Of a stretch of 64,000 bases of DNA, positions 1-10,677 are shown in pieces; the stretch's first letter is position 1, and every line of letters begins with the position of its first letter. The notes beneath the pieces are model-generated. The model saw only the letters and a list, made by a program, of their open reading frames with translations. It did not search any database and was not told the DNA's origin. The position numbers and the translations under genes were made by a program. Source of the DNA: Friedmanniella luteola (GTDB taxonomy: Bacteria; Actinomycetota; Actinomycetes; Propionibacteriales; Propionibacteriaceae); assembly GCF_900105065.1 (NCBI RefSeq), contig NZ_LT629749.1, forward strand, positions 62,001 to 126,000, given 5' to 3'.

Positions 1-96
1 ACCAGCGGTGGGCTGCTCGTCGTCGGGGAGATCCCGGGGGCGCCGGTCGTCGGCGAGGTGGTGGCCGCCGGGCCGCACCCGCTGGTCGTGCGCTGA
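1..96 (+). CDS. selD: C-terminal end of probable selenide, water dikinase (partial)
   Basis: Only the last 31 codons are in the window, in frame from base 1 to a TGA at 94-96. The peptide begins TSGGLLV and continues with GEVV about ten residues further on. TSGGLL followed by a short glycine and valine-rich tail is typical of the C-terminus of SelD in the AIR-synthase fold, which makes selenophosphate from selenide and ATP. Related PurM-fold proteins share parts of this motif, so the call is tentative. It is strengthened by the selenocysteine UGA in the formate dehydrogenase gene about 8 kb away, which needs SelD. Confidence 0.5.
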   Translation, partial: TSGGLLVVGEIPGAPVVGEVVAAGPHPLVVR

Positions 97-112
97 CCCG
101 GGGACGCCGAGC

Positions 113-922
113 GTGCCCGAGGGCCACACGCTGCACCGGCTCGCCGGTGAGCTGCAGGAGCTGGTGGGCGAGCGGGTGTCGGCCGCCTCACCGCAGGGCC
201 GGTTCCCGGCCGCGGCGGTCGACGGGGCGGTCGTCGCCGCCGTCGAGGCGTACGGCAAGCACCTGCTGGTGGACCTGGCGGAGCACCCCACGGTGCACGT
301 GCACCTCGGGATGCGGGGCAAGCTGCTGCGCTTCGCCCCCGTCACCGGGGCGCCGATGCCTCAGGTCCGGCTCCGGCTGGCCACGGCGGACGTGGCCTGG
401 GACCTGATCGCCCCCAGCACCTGCGAGCCGCTCGACGCGGCCGGCCGGGAGCGGCTGCTCGCCGGGCTGGGTCCCGACCCCCTGCGCGCCGGCCCCCTGC
501 ACCCCGACATCTTGCCCCGGGGCGCCGACGCGGCCGAGGCCCGCCGCCGGCTCCGGGCCTCCCGCGGGAGCGTCGGTGTCGCGCTGATGGACCAGTCGGT
601 GCTGGCCGGGGTGGGCAACGTCTTCCGGGCCGAGATCCTGCACGCGCTGCGGATCGCCCCCGAGCGGCCGGCGTCGCGGGTCAGCGACACGGAGTTCGAC
701 GCGCTCTGGTCCGGGCTGGCGGCGATGATGGGCCAGGCCGTCGAGGACGGCCGGATCATCACCGTGGACGTCCCCGCCGGTGAGGACCGGCTGGCCGTGC
801 CGGAGGCCGTCTCCCGCCGGGTCTACAGGCGCGACGCGTGCGCCGACTGCGGGACGCCGGTCGTCACCACGACCCTGCAGGGGCGGACGTCCTACGCCTG
901 CCCGCGCTGCCAGCCCGACTGA
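113..922 (+). CDS. nei2: Fpg/Nei family DNA glycosylase, Nei2-type endonuclease VIII
   Basis: A 269-residue base-excision repair glycosylase/AP lyase for oxidised bases. The GTG at 113 is chosen because, after processing, it puts the catalytic Pro and Glu of the PEGHT motif at the N-terminus, as the family requires; upstream in-frame sequence overlaps the previous gene. A conserved Lys lies in the GKHLL segment, the helix-two-turn-helix region includes GVGNVFRAEIL, and a C-terminal zinc finger carries four cysteines (CADC and CPRC). PEGHT rather than PELPE points to the Nei side of the family. It sits 16 nt after the selD-like gene. Confidence 0.9.
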   Translation: MPEGHTLHRLAGELQELVGERVSAASPQGRFPAAAVDGAVVAAVEAYGKHLLVDLAEHPTVHVHLGMRGKLLRFAPVTGAPMPQVRLRLATADVAWDLIAPSTCEPLDAAGRERLLAGLGPDPLRAGPLHPDILPRGADAAEARRRLRASRGSVGVALMDQSVLAGVGNVFRAEILHALRIAPERPASRVSDTEFDALWSGLAAMMGQAVEDGRIITVDVPAGEDRLAVPEAVSRRVYRRDACADCGTPVVTTTLQGRTSYACPRCQPD

Positions 923-3005: not shown

Positions 3006-4316
3006 CTAGGTGGTGGGCGGGGCGGCGTCGGCGTCCCGGGCGGCGGCTTCCGCTGCCCGGCGCCGGTCGAGCCGCTCCCGCTGCGGGACGATCGTGTACT
3101 TGGGGTCGTGGACGGACGCGGGCCCGGCCTCGAAGACGCCGAACCGGGTGCAGGCCGAGGCGGCCAGCAGGGCCACACCCGAGAGGCCGGCACCGACCCG
3201 GCTCCGGCGACCGACCAGCAGCGCGCCGAGGGCGCCGGCGGCGGTCAGCACCTTGCTGGCGGTCATCAGCCGACCCGGGGTCCCGGTGTGCAGCACCTCG
3301 GCCGACAGCCCCATCGAGTGCTCCATCCGGTGCTCGACGGCCAGCTCGACCGCCGCGCCGGCGACGGCGAAGAGCCGGGCGGGCCCGGACTCCGACAGCG
3401 GGGACAGCAGCATGCCCAGCCCGCCGGACGCCGCGGCGGCGGAACCGACGAAGACGAAGGGGAGCTCGCGGTGCGCGTCGTGCCACGCCGGGGTGGAGGT
3501 GTTGGTCAGCAGCACGGCGGTGTAGGACGCCACCCCGGGCGCGAAGGCGGCGGCGGCCAGGCCGGCGGGGCGGGCGGCCCAGTCGAGCAGCGTGCTGAGG
3601 ATCCCGAAGCGGACCGGCAGCAGCTTGGCCACCTCGGCCGCCCCGGCGACGACGGCGCCCGGGCCGTAGGCGGTGAGGATCCAGGTGCCGACCGACATCG
3701 GCGACGTCGGCTTGAACACCCGGAGCATGTTGAGGAACCGCTCGGGCCGACCGAGGTCGGCCACCAGGGCGGCGAGGCTGACGCTGATCGCCCCGGTGGC
3801 ACTGATCCGGGCCGCGCGTCGCAGGGTCGGCCGTCCGGTCAGGTCCGCGCCGGCGGCCAGCAGCGACGAGCCGCCGGCGATGCCGCCCATGAAGAGGTAC
3901 AGCGGGATCGCCGTCTCCCAGGGGGCGGCCTTGACGACCGGGCGGCCGTAGTAGGAGGTGAAGGTCGCGTCCGGGACCATCTGCTCCTCGGCACGGCGCT
4001 TGCGTCGACCCCCGCCGCCGCGGCGCCGCGAGCCGTCGCCCGGCGGGGTCCCGCGGCCGGCGTCGCTGACCTGACCGGCCCCGTGCTCCTGGCCGCCCCG
4101 CAGGTGCTCGCCGACGCGCGGGCTCTGGCCGGGTCCGGCGCTGCCCCGGTCGCCGCCAGCGGTGCGCTCAGCCGTGGCGGCCGCGCTGGTCCCGCCGGCC
4201 GACCCCGGGATCGCACTGATGTCGTCGGCGGTGTTCTTCGGACCGTCCTCGTTGATGTCCGGGTTGGCGGCCGAGCCGACGGCCTGCTCGCCCTTCTCGT
4301 ACTCCCCGGTGCTCAT
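3006..4316 (-). CDS. nrfD: NrfD/PsrC-type membrane anchor subunit of formate dehydrogenase
   Basis: A 436-residue polytopic protein. Residues 1 to about 115 are a hydrophilic Gly, Arg and Glu-rich extension of low complexity. The NrfD (polysulfide reductase) domain then begins at TSYYGRPVVKAAPWE, with about eight membrane helices. The family passes electrons between an iron-sulfur partner and quinone. The start ATG overlaps the stop of the iron-sulfur subunit by 4 bp (ATGA), indicating translational coupling. The long N-terminal extension is unusual for the family. Confidence 0.88.
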   Translation of the reverse strand: MSTGEYEKGEQAVGSAANPDINEDGPKNTADDISAIPGSAGGTSAAATAERTAGGDRGSAGPGQSPRVGEHLRGGQEHGAGQVSDAGRGTPPGDGSRRRGGGGRRKRRAEEQMVPDATFTSYYGRPVVKAAPWETAIPLYLFMGGIAGGSSLLAAGADLTGRPTLRRAARISATGAISVSLAALVADLGRPERFLNMLRVFKPTSPMSVGTWILTAYGPGAVVAGAAEVAKLLPVRFGILSTLLDWAARPAGLAAAAFAPGVASYTAVLLTNTSTPAWHDAHRELPFVFVGSAAAASGGLGMLLSPLSESGPARLFAVAGAAVELAVEHRMEHSMGLSAEVLHTGTPGRLMTASKVLTAAGALGALLVGRRSRVGAGLSGVALLAASACTRFGVFEAGPASVHDPKYTIVPQRERLDRRRAAEAAARDADAAPPTT

Positions 4317-5467
4317 CGACGGGCCCCGGTGAAGGCGACGGCGGCCGCCGCCAGCAGCCCCAGGGCGGCCAGCCCGGCGTGCTTCCACATCCGCGGCAGG
4401 TCGGCGGTCGTGACGATGGGGTCGGGCGGGAAGCCGTAGACCTCGGGCTCGTCCAGCAGCAGGAAGAACGCCCCGGCCCCGCCGACGCCGCCTTCCGGGT
4501 CCTCGGCGTAGAGCTGGGCGTTCATGACCCCGGCGGCCTGCAGGTCCGCGACCCGCTTCTCGGCCCGCTCGCGGAGCTCGTCCACGTCGCCGAACTGGAT
4601 CGACTGGGTCGGGCACGCCTTGGCGCAGGCCGGGACCTGGTCGTCGAGCAGCCGGTCGTAGCACAGCGTACACTTCTGGGCGATGCCGGCGTTCTTCGTC
4701 GTCGGCTTGTCGGAGTGGCCGAACAGCGGGGCCTTCTCACCGATCCGCCGGTCGATGACGCCGAACGGGCAGCCCGCGACGCAGTAACCGCAGCCGTTGC
4801 AGATGTCGTCCTGCACGACGACGGTGCCGAACTCGGTGCGGAACAGCGCGCCCGTCGGGCAGACGTCGAGGCAGCCGGCGTTGGTGCAGTGCTTGCAGAC
4901 GTTGGACGCCATCAGCCAGCGGAAGTCGGTCCGCTCACCGGCGTCCGGGGAGGCGCTGGGCAGGTCGAACGCCGGCATCCCGAGGTCGACCATGCCCTGG
5001 GCGCCCTGCCCCGGGCCCTGGGCCAGCCGGAGGGCGTCCAGGGGGTTGCCCTCGACCATCTCCTTCAGCGACACGTCGGGCCCGAGCACCGTCTCCGGCA
5101 CGCCGATGGTGATGCCGTTGTCCTGGTTCCCCAGCGGCTTGCGCTGCTCGATGAACTCGACGTGGCGCCAGGTGCTCGCGCCCAGCGCGCCGGTGTTGTC
5201 GTAGGAGCTCCCGAGCAGCTCGTAGATGCCGTCCTGCGGCACCCCGTTCCACTCCTTGCAGGCCACCTCGCAGGCCTTGCAGCCGATGCAGATCGAGGTG
5301 TCGGTGAAGAAGCCCTTGCGCGGCGGCGGGGCCTCCCACCCGGCGTGCGCGGCCGGACCGGAGGGACCCGCCGAGGTGAAGGCCTGGTCGAGCCCGAGGT
5401 GCCCGTCGCCCGGGTCGGCGTGGCTGTGGCCGGTGCCCTGGTGGGCGGGATCGCCGTACGGGCTCAT
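4313..5467 (-). CDS. fdhB: Formate dehydrogenase iron-sulfur (ferredoxin-like) subunit
   Basis: A 384-residue electron-transfer subunit with four cysteine motifs for [4Fe-4S] clusters: CIGCKACEVAC, CKHCTNAGCLDVC, CNGCGYCVAGC and the split CTLC...CAKAC. The N-terminal 50 residues are His, Gly and Pro-rich. The end is hydrophobic (HAGLAALGLLAAAAVAF), giving a C-terminal membrane anchor as in FDH-N beta subunits. Its ATG overlaps the stop of the catalytic subunit by 4 bp and its stop overlaps the NrfD start by 4 bp. It carries electrons from the molybdenum/tungsten subunit to NrfD. Confidence 0.93.
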   Translation of the reverse strand: MSPYGDPAHQGTGHSHADPGDGHLGLDQAFTSAGPSGPAAHAGWEAPPPRKGFFTDTSICIGCKACEVACKEWNGVPQDGIYELLGSSYDNTGALGASTWRHVEFIEQRKPLGNQDNGITIGVPETVLGPDVSLKEMVEGNPLDALRLAQGPGQGAQGMVDLGMPAFDLPSASPDAGERTDFRWLMASNVCKHCTNAGCLDVCPTGALFRTEFGTVVVQDDICNGCGYCVAGCPFGVIDRRIGEKAPLFGHSDKPTTKNAGIAQKCTLCYDRLLDDQVPACAKACPTQSIQFGDVDELRERAEKRVADLQAAGVMNAQLYAEDPEGGVGGAGAFFLLLDEPEVYGFPPDPIVTTADLPRMWKHAGLAALGLLAAAAVAFTGARR

Positions 5468-8400
5468 GAGGTTCCGTCCTCGCTCTGGGGGTTCAGGTAC
5501 TGGCCGCTCGGGGCGTGACCTTCGGCGACCTGGCCCTGCGAGGAGTGGCCGTGGTCCCCGTCGCGGCTGGCGTGCTTGCCGTCCGCACCCTCGGGTGGCG
5601 TCCGCTGCTGGTTGCCGGTCGCAAGCGTGACGTGGGCCCGCTCCCGGTGGGCGGCGACGTAGTCCAGCAGCGCGGCGCCGCGGGGGCGCCGACCCGGCTG
5701 GATGTCGCAGGAACCGACCTTCGTCTCCTGGATGTGCACGTTCGGGTCGAGCGTGACGCCGAAGAGGTCGTTGGCGGAGTCCCCGGTGACCAGGGCGTCG
5801 CTCCCGACGCCCCAGTGGTACGGCAGCCCGATCTGGTGGATCGTCTTGCCGCCGGCCCGCAGCGGGGCCACCCGCTCGGTGACCAGCACCTTGGCCTCGA
5901 TCGCCGTCCGGGCGCTGATGATCGTCGCCCAGCCGTTGTTCACCAGGCCGCGCTCCCGGGCCAGCTCCGGGGAGACCTCGCAGAAGAACTCCGGTTGGAG
6001 CTCGGCCAGGTGGGACTGCCAGCGGCTCATGCCGCCCGCGGTGTGGTGCTCGGTCAACCGGTAGGTGGTGAACACGTAGGGGTAGAGCTCCGAGCCGGGC
6101 TCGTCCCCCGAGGGGTTCTGCAGGTTGTCCTGGCGCGGGAAGAGCTCGCGGGTCGGGTTGGACTGCTGCCGCGACATCGGGTTGCTGATGGGCGACTCCT
6201 GCGGCTCGTAGTGCACCGGCAGGGGGCCGTCGAGCAGCCCGCTGGGCGCGTAGAGCCAGCCCTTCCCGTCCGCCTGCATGATGAACGGGTCGTCCCCGGC
6301 CAGCCCGGCCGGACCGGACGCGCCCTTCGGCGGCCGGTAGGAGGGAGCCTTGCCGACCTCGAAGTCCGGGACGTCGTGCCCGGTCCACTTCTGCTGCTCC
6401 TCGTCCCACCAGACGTAGGCCTTGCGCTCGCTCCAGGGCTTGCCGTCCGGGTCCGCCGCCGCGCGGTTGTAGAGGATCCGGCGGTTCATCGGCCAGGCCC
6501 AGCCCCACTCGGGCGCGACCCAGGACTGCTCGCGGCCAGGCTTGCGCCGCATCGACTGGTTCACCCCGTCGGCGTAGACGCCGGTGTAGATCCAGCAACC
6601 GCCGCTGGTGGTGCCGTCCGGCTTCATCTCGTTGAAGGTGTTGAGCATCTGGCCGGCCTTCTCCCCGGCCAGGTGGTAGCCGTTGATCTCGCGCAGCACG
6701 GCGTCGGCCGAGATCTCCCCGGACTCGTCCAGCGGGTAGTCCCACGTCAGGTCGAGGATCGGGCGGTCGCGCTCGTCGGTCGAGCCGGCCAGCCGGGCAC
6801 GGATCTTCTGACCCAGCAGGTAGAAGAACTCCAGCTCGCTCTGCGCGTCACCGGGCGGGTCGACCGCCTTGTGGTGCCACTGCAGCATCCGCTGGGTCTG
6901 GGTGAACGTGCCGCCCTTCTCCACGTGCGCCGCCGCCGGGAAGAAGAAGACCTCGGTGTCGATCTCGTCGGTCTTCAGCTCGCCCGTCTCGATCTCCGGG
7001 CCGTCCTTCCAGAACGTCGCCGACTCGATCATGTTCAGGTCCCGGACCACCAGCCACTTCAGGTGGGACAGGCCCATCCGCTGCATCTTCCCGTGCGCCG
7101 AGCCGACGGCCGGGTTCTGGCCCAGCAGGAAGTAGCCGTCGATCTCGTCCCGCAGCATCGACATCACGGTCGCGTAGGTGCCGTGGTCGCCGGTCAGCTT
7201 CGGGATGTAGGAGAACGCGTAGTCGTTCTCCTCGGTCGCGGCGTCACCCCACCAGGCCTTGAGCAGGTTGACGGTGTAGGTCTTGGCGTTGACCCAGAAG
7301 CCCTTCTGGTCGGGGCTCGCGATCTCCGCGACGTACTCGTCGAGGGAGTCGTGCGGTCCGGCCTTCGGCATCGGCAGGTAGCCGGGCAGCAGGTTGAACA
7401 GGGTCGGGATGTCGGTCGAGCCCTGGATGCTGGCGTGGCCGCGCAGCGCGAGGATCCCGCCGCCCGGACGGCCCATGTTGCCCAGCAGCAGCTGGATGAT
7501 GGCCGAGCCGCGGATGTACTGCACACCCACGGTGTGGTGCGTCCAGCCGACCGAGTAGACCCACGTGGTGGTGCGCTCGCGGCCGCTGTTCTCGGTCACC
7601 GCCTCGCACACCTCGAGCAGCTGCTCGGGGCTGATGCCGCAGGTCTCCTGCACCATCTCCGGGGTGTAGCGGGCGTAGTGCCGCTTCAGCACCTGGAAGA
7701 CCGAGCGGGGGTGCTGCAGGGTCTCGTCCCGCTTGATGTTGCTCGGGTCCATGGCGGCACCGTGGCCGCCCAGCTCGTGGCCGGCGCCCCGGCTGCTCTC
7801 GGACTCCGTGCCCTCGTCACCCGCGCCGCTGCTGCTGTCGCTGGCCGTGGCGTCGTCCTGGCCCTCGTAGGACCAGCTGGTGGTGTCGTAGGTGCCGGTC
7901 TCGGGGTCGTAGCCGGAGAAGACGCCGTCGAGGTCGTCTGCGTCGACGAAGTCCTCGCTGACCAGCGTGGCCGCGTTCGTGTAGGCGAGCACGTACTCGT
8001 GGAAGTACTTCTCGTTGCTGAGGATGTAGTTGATGACGGCGCCGAGGAAGACGATGTCGCTGCCGGCCCGGATCGGGACGTGCGTGTCCGCCACGGCCGA
8101 CGTGCGCGTGAAGCGCGGGTCGATGTGGATGACCTTGGCCCCCCGGGCCTTCGCCTCCATCACCCACTGGAACCCCACGGGATGGCACTCGGCCATGTTG
8201 GAGCCCTGGATGACGATGCAGTCAGCCTTCTGGAGGTCCTGCAGGAAGCCGGTGGCGCCGCCACGGCCGAACGAGGCTCCCAGACTGGGAACCGTCGCAC
8301 TGTGTCAAATACGGGCCTGGTTCTCGATCTGTATGGCGCCCAGCGCGGTGAAGAGCTTCTTGATCAGGTAGTTCTCTTCGTTGTCCAGGGTCGCGCCGCC

Positions 8401-8874
8401 CAGGGCGGCGATCCCCATCGTCCGGCGCACCGGACGACCCTCGGCGTCGGTGTCCTGCCAGCGTTGGCGGCGGGACTCGACCATCCGGTCGGCGATCATG
8501 TCGGTGGCCTCGTCGACGCCGATCTTCTCCCAGGAGGTGCTTCGGGGGCGGCGGTAGAGCATCGTCGTGGCCCGGCCCGGGGCGTTCACGAGCTGCTCGC
8601 TGGCCGACCCCTTCGGGCACAGGCGCCCGCGGGAGACGGGCGAGTCCGGGTCGCCCTCGATCTGGACCACGTGCTCGTCCTTCACGAACACCCGCTGCCC
8701 GCAACCCACGGCGCAGTAGGGGCAGACGCTCTGCACGACGCGGTCAGCCGTCTTGGTGCGCGGCGTCAGGTTGCGGGTGCGCTCCGACTGCACGGCCGAG
8801 CCACGGCCGAGCGGGTCCTTGCCGGTGAGCTGCCGGAGCACCGGCCACTCGAGGAATGTCTTGCGGATGTCCAT
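5464..8874 (-). CDS. fdhA: Selenocysteine-containing formate dehydrogenase catalytic subunit (UGA = Sec190)
   Basis: The molybdopterin subunit that oxidises formate to CO2. It reads as one 1136-residue protein only if the in-frame TGA at 8305-8307 is decoded as selenocysteine: NQARI, then U, then HSATVPSLGASFGRG. That matches the FdnG-type active site, where Sec follows NQARI and is followed by His. The N-terminal [4Fe-4S] ligands are C51, C54, C58 and C86. Homology continues without shift to the C-terminus. The ATG at 8874 has GGAGG 6 nt upstream. No twin-arginine signal is visible, so the subunit may face the cytoplasm. Residues about 338-374 are a Ser, Gly and Asp-rich insertion. The operon continues with fdhB, nrfD and an OFA transporter. 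Confidence 0.95.
8272..8297 (-). promoter_or_regulatory. Bacterial SECIS-like hairpin downstream of the Sec UGA
   Basis: On the mRNA strand, 7 nt after the UGA, the sequence folds as CGA, a bulged C, GGUUCCC, loop AGUCU, GGGAGCC, UCG. The stem is 3 plus 7 bp with one U-G pair. The small apical loop contains GU, as in the E. coli fdhF SECIS recognised by SelB. The hairpin is also coding sequence, as in other bacterial SECIS elements. Its position and loop support recoding rather than termination. SelB binding is inferred. Confidence 0.8.
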
Positions 8875-9951: not shown

Positions 9952-10677
9952 TCAGAGCCGGCGCGTGTCCAGGCGGGTCTCGACAGCCGCCTCCTCCCCG
10001 GCCTCCACGTGGTAGGCGGCCTTGTCGTCCTCCTCGGTCAGCGCCTCGACCAGCTCGGTGCCGCGGTAGAGCAGTCCCACCCCGTCGTCGGTCGCGTAAC
10101 CCGTCGGCAGGGTGCCGTCCTGCACCAGGGACTGGAACAGCGGGCGCCGTTGCTCCTCGCTGTCGTAGTGCACGCCGTTGCTCCAGGGCAGCAGCCCCAG
10201 CCCGTTGGTGACGGGCTGCAGGTCCGGACCGAACGAGTCGGTGGTTCCGCCGCGGTGCCAGCAGATCGAGCCGGCCGACACCCCCGTCAGCACCACGCCC
10301 GCCCGCCACGCGCGTTCCAGTGCCCGGTCGTAGCCGTGCAGCCGCCACAGGGCCAGCAGCCCGGCCACGCTGCCCCCCAGCACCCAGATGACGTCCTGCT
10401 CGAGCAGGTGAGCCGCCGGGTCCTCGACGTTGGGCATCCCGAACGAGGTGAGGTGCGAGGCGTGCAGCCCCCGCAGCATCGCCGCCTCGTAGAGCCCGGT
10501 GATGGCCGTCGGGTTGTCCCCGGAGGCCGTGGCCAGGAAGCAGATCCGTGGGGCGCGATCGGAGACCCCGGCCAGCTCGAGCGCGTGCTCGGTCAGCTCG
10601 GAGAACTCCCAGCGGGTGCGCCGGCCGGGACGGATCCCGCCCGAGGTGGCCAGGATGGTGGGGCCGTCGGCAGTCAT
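9952..10677 (-). CDS. pepE: Peptidase E-like S51 family protein
   Basis: A 241-residue member of the class I glutamine-amidotransferase-like S51 family, which in characterised members cleaves Asp-X dipeptides. The nucleophile elbow is GVSAGSICW with the catalytic Ser; upstream are the conserved LATASGDNP and a VIWVLGGS segment. The ATG at 10677 (MTADGPTILATSGG) is chosen because it gives the family's standard N-terminal beta strand. It is probably cytoplasmic. Substrate may differ from true PepE, since actinobacterial members are mostly uncharacterised. Confidence 0.85.
   Translation of the reverse strand: MTADGPTILATSGGIRPGRRTRWEFSELTEHALELAGVSDRAPRICFLATASGDNPTAITGLYEAAMLRGLHASHLTSFGMPNVEDPAAHLLEQDVIWVLGGSVAGLLALWRLHGYDRALERAWRAGVVLTGVSAGSICWHRGGTTDSFGPDLQPVTNGLGLLPWSNGVHYDSEEQRRPLFQSLVQDGTLPTGYATDDGVGLLYRGTELVEALTEEDDKAAYHVEAGEEAAVETRLDTRRL

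Follow-up and report, generated by a model that had tools for sequence, protein, structure and literature searches.

Does the TGA that lies in frame within a formate dehydrogenase gene of this actinobacterium end translation, or does it specify selenocysteine (Sec)? The DNA analysed here (the window) is a stretch of 64,000 nucleotides, C1:62001–126000 of a host genome that consists of one contig of 4.72 Mb. The evidence argues for Sec: with a probability of about 0.97, judged from sequence, the gene, fdhA, encodes a catalytic subunit that contains selenocysteine and belongs to a membrane-bound formate dehydrogenase (FDH).

The fdhA Gene and its In-Frame TGA

On the minus strand, fdhA forms a single frame of 1136 codons plus stop, from the ATG at 8874–8872 to the final stop at 5466–5464, with the TGA at 8307–8305 as its sole interruption (Table 1). 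The read-through translation scored 1956.1 bits with the NCBIfam model NF041513 (formate_DH_Act, a formate dehydrogenase model of the library type 'exception'), whose cut-off is 1400. The best stretch spans the TGA and covers model positions 2–1067 of 1067, and no essential difference from this family was seen. TIGR01553 (formate dehydrogenase-N alpha) was likewise matched above its cut-off (964.9 vs. 814.2). The translation carries near its N-terminus the motif CPYCAVGC, which we take to be an iron-sulphur ligand motif. The proposal of the first-pass annotation that two apparently separate reading frames are one gene is thus borne out by the 1136-codon frame and by a family match unbroken across the TGA.

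When PDB sequences were searched with FdhA using phmmer, the best matches were 1H0H and 1KQF, the latter being FdnG of E. coli. FdhA residues 45–340 and 380–1045 align with FdnG, and the TGA residue coincides with the non-standard residue X of both 1h0h_A (ARIXHSATV) and 1kqf_A (ARVXHGPTV), which places it at the Sec position of FdnG, as had been claimed.

Table 1. Features of the fdh locus and of the adjoining sel cluster (positions without prefix are those of the window; scores are followed by the curated cut-off).
Feature	Position	Strand	Basis
fdhA, putative selenocysteine formate dehydrogenase alpha subunit	5464..8874	-	translation; NF041513 match; 1H0H/1KQF alignment
TGA probably read as selenocysteine, residue 190, NQARI-U-H	8305..8307	-	translation, structure-sequence alignment, relatives
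SECIS hairpin, 7-bp stem, 5-nt loop AGUCU	8275..8293	-	fold, covariation, model search
fdhB, iron-sulphur beta subunit	4313..5467	-	FDH-beta and Fer4 matches, junction, hydropathy
NrfD-like membrane subunit gene	3006..4316	-	PF03916, 70 bits, cut-off 25.8; junction
selB	C1:57734-59524	-	266.2, cut-off 242.25
selA	C1:59525-60871	-	411.9, cut-off 267.9
tRNA-Sec (selC), anticodon UCA	C1:60965-61060	-	Rfam model and ARAGORN
selD	C1:61098-62096; 3' end = window 1..96	+	394.5, cut-off 125

The SECIS Hairpin Downstream of the TGA

A hairpin of the SECIS type, GGUUCCC-AGUCU-GGGAGCC, begins 11 nt past the TGA. Within a 38-nt stretch its fold has an energy of -17.2 kcal/mol (z -2.75), equalled by 5 of 200 shuffles; in a 50-nt stretch its stability did not exceed that of shuffles (z -0.97; 25 of 200 as good). 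Evolutionary evidence was drawn from an alignment of 66 distinct sequences out of 110, from which identical ones had been dropped and in which the host gene and five copies with TAG were kept. Pairing holds in 93.1% of 462 cells; shuffles give 88.6, and sliding the partner gives no more than 64.5. Cells changed on both sides number 26 (8.7 in shuffles), pairs with two-sided change number 3 (1.9 in shuffles, with 7 of 500 as high) and the covariation score was matched by none of 500 shuffles, although these counts come from sequences related to one another and are not probabilities. Further pair types, of which there are 6, are unremarkable, since 402 of 500 shuffles reach this figure.

The two-sided changes fall in columns 15/33, 18/30 and 21/27, each of which is a third codon position, so that such coupling would not be expected from protein conservation alone. 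Columns 18/30, for instance, hold CG in 41 sequences, UA in 20, UG in 3 and GU in 2. Failures concern the outermost pair 15/33, broken in 30 of the 66 sequences, and 17/31, broken in 2. Of 46 further copies, 33 retain the full set of seven pairs and 13 retain six of them. A covariance model (R1) built from the 66 sequences, and specific to this FDH gene family, gave one significant match in the host genome, the fdhA hairpin; the next match had an E-value of 1.23 (150 of 8724 first-look candidates scored). Since the model is family-specific and part of the candidates were scored, the host genome may hold further selenoproteins. Rfam at its gathering thresholds returned three ordinary tRNAs in the window and no SECIS.

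Selenocysteine Machinery Beside the Window

The first-pass annotation had named absence of selA, selB and tRNA-Sec from the genome as grounds against Sec. All of these and selD were found, above their curated cut-offs, in one block at C1:57734–62096 that ends at window base 96 and adjoins the fdh operon. The winged-helix domain PF09107 of SelB was also matched, and SelD is of the Cys type, with the motif GGGCACK and no in-frame TGA. Across 14 control genomes the same cut-offs were passed by selA in 2, selB in 2, selD in 2 and tRNA-Sec in 5. At 81.6 bits the tRNA-Sec match exceeded the gathering score (47), and two other matches in the genome fell below that score (150 of 1143 candidates scored). 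Because that gathering score is passed in 5 of the 14 controls, the Rfam match is weak by itself, and the tRNA assignment therefore also leans on the anticodon found by ARAGORN and on the position within the cluster. After selD, an open reading frame at window positions 8–922 (plus strand) has matches to Fpg/Nei-type DNA glycosylases, all below curated cut-offs.

Distribution of TGA-Bearing Formate Dehydrogenases

The order was sampled evenly with 391 genomes, set beside the 14 controls. NF041513 passed its cut-off in 77 of the former and in none of the latter; 76 copies contain exactly one TGA and one contains no stop. Inspection of the site in each of the 76 copies (30 in loci L018–L047, one in genome G295 and 45 in L138–L182) always showed the TGA at the same codon, so it is neither chance nor the sequencing error that had been raised as a possibility. 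Partial FDH copies in G101 and G358 likewise have TGA at the Sec codon.

SelA was counted at an E-value of 1e-30 or better, which gave 81 of 391 genomes; looser limits gave 121 (E ≤ 0.001) or 118 (over the Pfam cut-off), and these weaker matches were left out because they are probably other PLP enzymes. Strong SelA occurs in 75 of the 76 TGA-bearing genomes. The exception is G295, which gave no SelA match although its listed completeness is 100% (about 330 contigs, contamination 4). Conversely, six SelA genomes have no over-cut-off TGA copy, namely G101 and G358 with their partial copies, and G018, G102, G031 and G269, where FDH gene, Sec motif and SECIS were not found within 17–19 kb around selA. 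SelB adjoins strong SelA in three of these last four (L130, L131, L132, L133). Within the host genus (19 genomes sampled, the host included), the TGA gene is found in 14 and strong SelA likewise in 14. With the TGA gene in 14 of 19 and 76 of 391 genomes, the sparseness of selenoproteins that had been stated for this part of the actinobacteria is not upheld. According to the part of PMC1794560 available to us, Actinobacteria are one of three selenoprotein-rich phyla.

The stop-free copy (G377) has TGC, i.e., Cys, at the Sec codon, and SelA has no match in that genome. A remnant hairpin there (L128:5612–5659) scores 43.1 bits, compared with 66.5 in the host gene, with two of seven pairs broken and the loop changed, perhaps reflecting a change from Sec to Cys. 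Cys homologues with remnant SECIS have been described, and every selenoproteome is stated to hold FdhA or SelD, in the accessible portion of PMC1794560.

The Sec-site motif was matched in 109 of 110 FDH loci (L018–L127), and not in L054, a copy from a Frankiales MAG. The codon is TGA in 101 of these, the host gene (L036) among them, and TAG in 8. Named relatives were taken from the 80 top-ranking stretches among 590 confirmed. The TAG loci (L058, L060, L062, L063, L064, L065, L069, L109) belong to Modestobacter, Geodermatophilus and Klenkia, in line with the UAG-selenocysteine formate dehydrogenases known in Geodermatophilaceae from the part of PMC5330540 consulted. A recoded stop is common to those enzymes and to the host, which uses UGA with anticodon UCA. 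In all eight TAG loci the codon lies near 10556–10568 and is followed by a hairpin of the same kind. Five of them were scanned with ARAGORN, which detected no tRNA there. Among the matches listed, where very near records may be omitted, Microlunatus endophyticus has the named copy closest to FdhA (76% over its best segment), so that the host probably belongs to that genus or lies near it.

Alternative Readings of the TGA

Here the UGA aligned with Sec/Cys homologues, the SECIS downstream and selA, selB, selC and selD in the genome, by which bacterial selenoproteins are recognised, occur together. Alternatively, an ordinary Trp or Cys tRNA could decode the UGA, giving a full-length FdhA without selenium. 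The sequence is compatible with such a minor product at low selenium, but the presence of tRNA-Sec (UCA), SelA, SelB, SelD and a covarying SECIS, together with the co-occurrence of TGA gene and SelA in 75 of 76 genomes, makes this reading very improbable. That the TGA is a real stop, through which a nonsense mutation or an error of sequencing has turned a Cys/Sec enzyme into a pseudogene, would fit the standard code and a list of open reading frames that shows two pieces, but is scarcely credible for a codon kept in 76 of 77 over-cut-off copies from 391 genomes, across genera, in a frame intact over its other codons and beside sel genes and a SECIS. All these readings were rejected, each on the grounds given for it.

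The Operon and its Predicted Membrane Complex

The genes fdhA, fdhB and the NrfD-like gene follow each other with ATGA overlaps, in which the stop of fdhA meets the start of fdhB and the stop of fdhB meets the start of the third gene. Both partner genes are present in 38 of 41 named loci of at least 23 kb among the matches listed, with selA in 28, selB in 28 and selD in 24. A simple hydropathy scan predicted one C-terminal membrane helix in FdhB and gave only two strong hydrophobic segments in the NrfD-like protein, fewer than expected for a multi-pass subunit, so that its membrane role is assigned from the Pfam match. PF03916 is the sole Pfam match of the third gene at E ≤ 0.001, and the feature of an FdnI-type cytochrome b was not found in it.

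E. coli FdnG bears a Tat signal, and the gamma subunit FdnI is a b-type cytochrome. In FdhA, by contrast, RR is absent from the first 60 residues and from the codons upstream as far as the in-frame stop 39 codons back. The Tat-like pattern [ST]RRxF[LI] occurred in none of 102 loci with a readable N-terminus (the host locus not excluded), in a pattern search rather than with a signal-peptide predictor. Since no Tat-type signal was found and the membrane subunit resembles NrfD, the complex differs from FdnGHI in its overall composition. The label 'FdnG-type' given in the first-pass annotation stands for the catalytic subunit and does not extend to export or to the membrane partner. The absent Tat-type signal suggests that the catalytic subunit is probably cytoplasmic. 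It is possible, at somewhat less than even odds, that the complex works as a cytoplasm-facing formate:menaquinone oxidoreductase, wired unlike E. coli FdnGHI and perhaps acting as a CO2 reductase, with the sel machinery kept for maybe one protein.

Proposed Route of Selenium and Electrons

The roles of SelA to SelD and of SECIS are established. On the selenocysteine reading, selenophosphate would be made by SelD, Ser-tRNA-Sec would be converted to Sec-tRNA-Sec by SelA, and SelB would bring the latter to the ribosome, where the SECIS just past the UGA would mark the codon for Sec. Once incorporated in this cell, as appears probable, Sec would be a ligand of molybdenum (or tungsten) in the bis-MGD cofactor. 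Formate would be oxidised to CO2, the presumed direction of catalysis. The iron-sulphur clusters of FdhA and then FdhB would conduct the electrons to the NrfD-like subunit, from which they would most likely reach menaquinone as the presumptive quinone acceptor.

Relation to Known Systems and Significance

A comparable case comes from A. chiangmaiensis DSM 45062, which we assume to be an Actinomycetospora. Its FDH1, in the accessible text of PMC7176365, is membrane-bound, with a Sec-containing FdhA of 1078 residues, FdhB and FdhC, and with SelA and SelB in the same cluster. The same text reports three Sec-FDH systems in that genome and a selenium-dependent removal of formate. In the host, one SECIS of this kind was found among the candidates scored; the two systems are likened by description. 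PMC5029168, a survey of 2016 and the only match in a literature search on selenoproteins in Microlunatus, names Microlunatus phosphovorus NM-1 as a Sec-trait donor to an Arthrobacter. In most such donors and recipients, according to the survey, FDH alpha is the sole selenoprotein gene and lies close to the key genes or in one operon with them. Microlunatus phosphovorus is probably a near relative of the host.

The enzyme is of an already known kind, common among related bacteria: the family model NF041513 exists, the gene occurs in most sampled genomes of the genus, and the Sec trait is known in Microlunatus phosphovorus. The case of fdhA raises no new question on selenocysteine decoding. Its value lies in annotation, where fdhA, its Sec codon and the sel cluster can be treated as one selenoprotein system. 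For the organism, selenium supply would decide formate oxidation via FdhA, as in the other actinobacterium described in the consulted part of PMC7176365.
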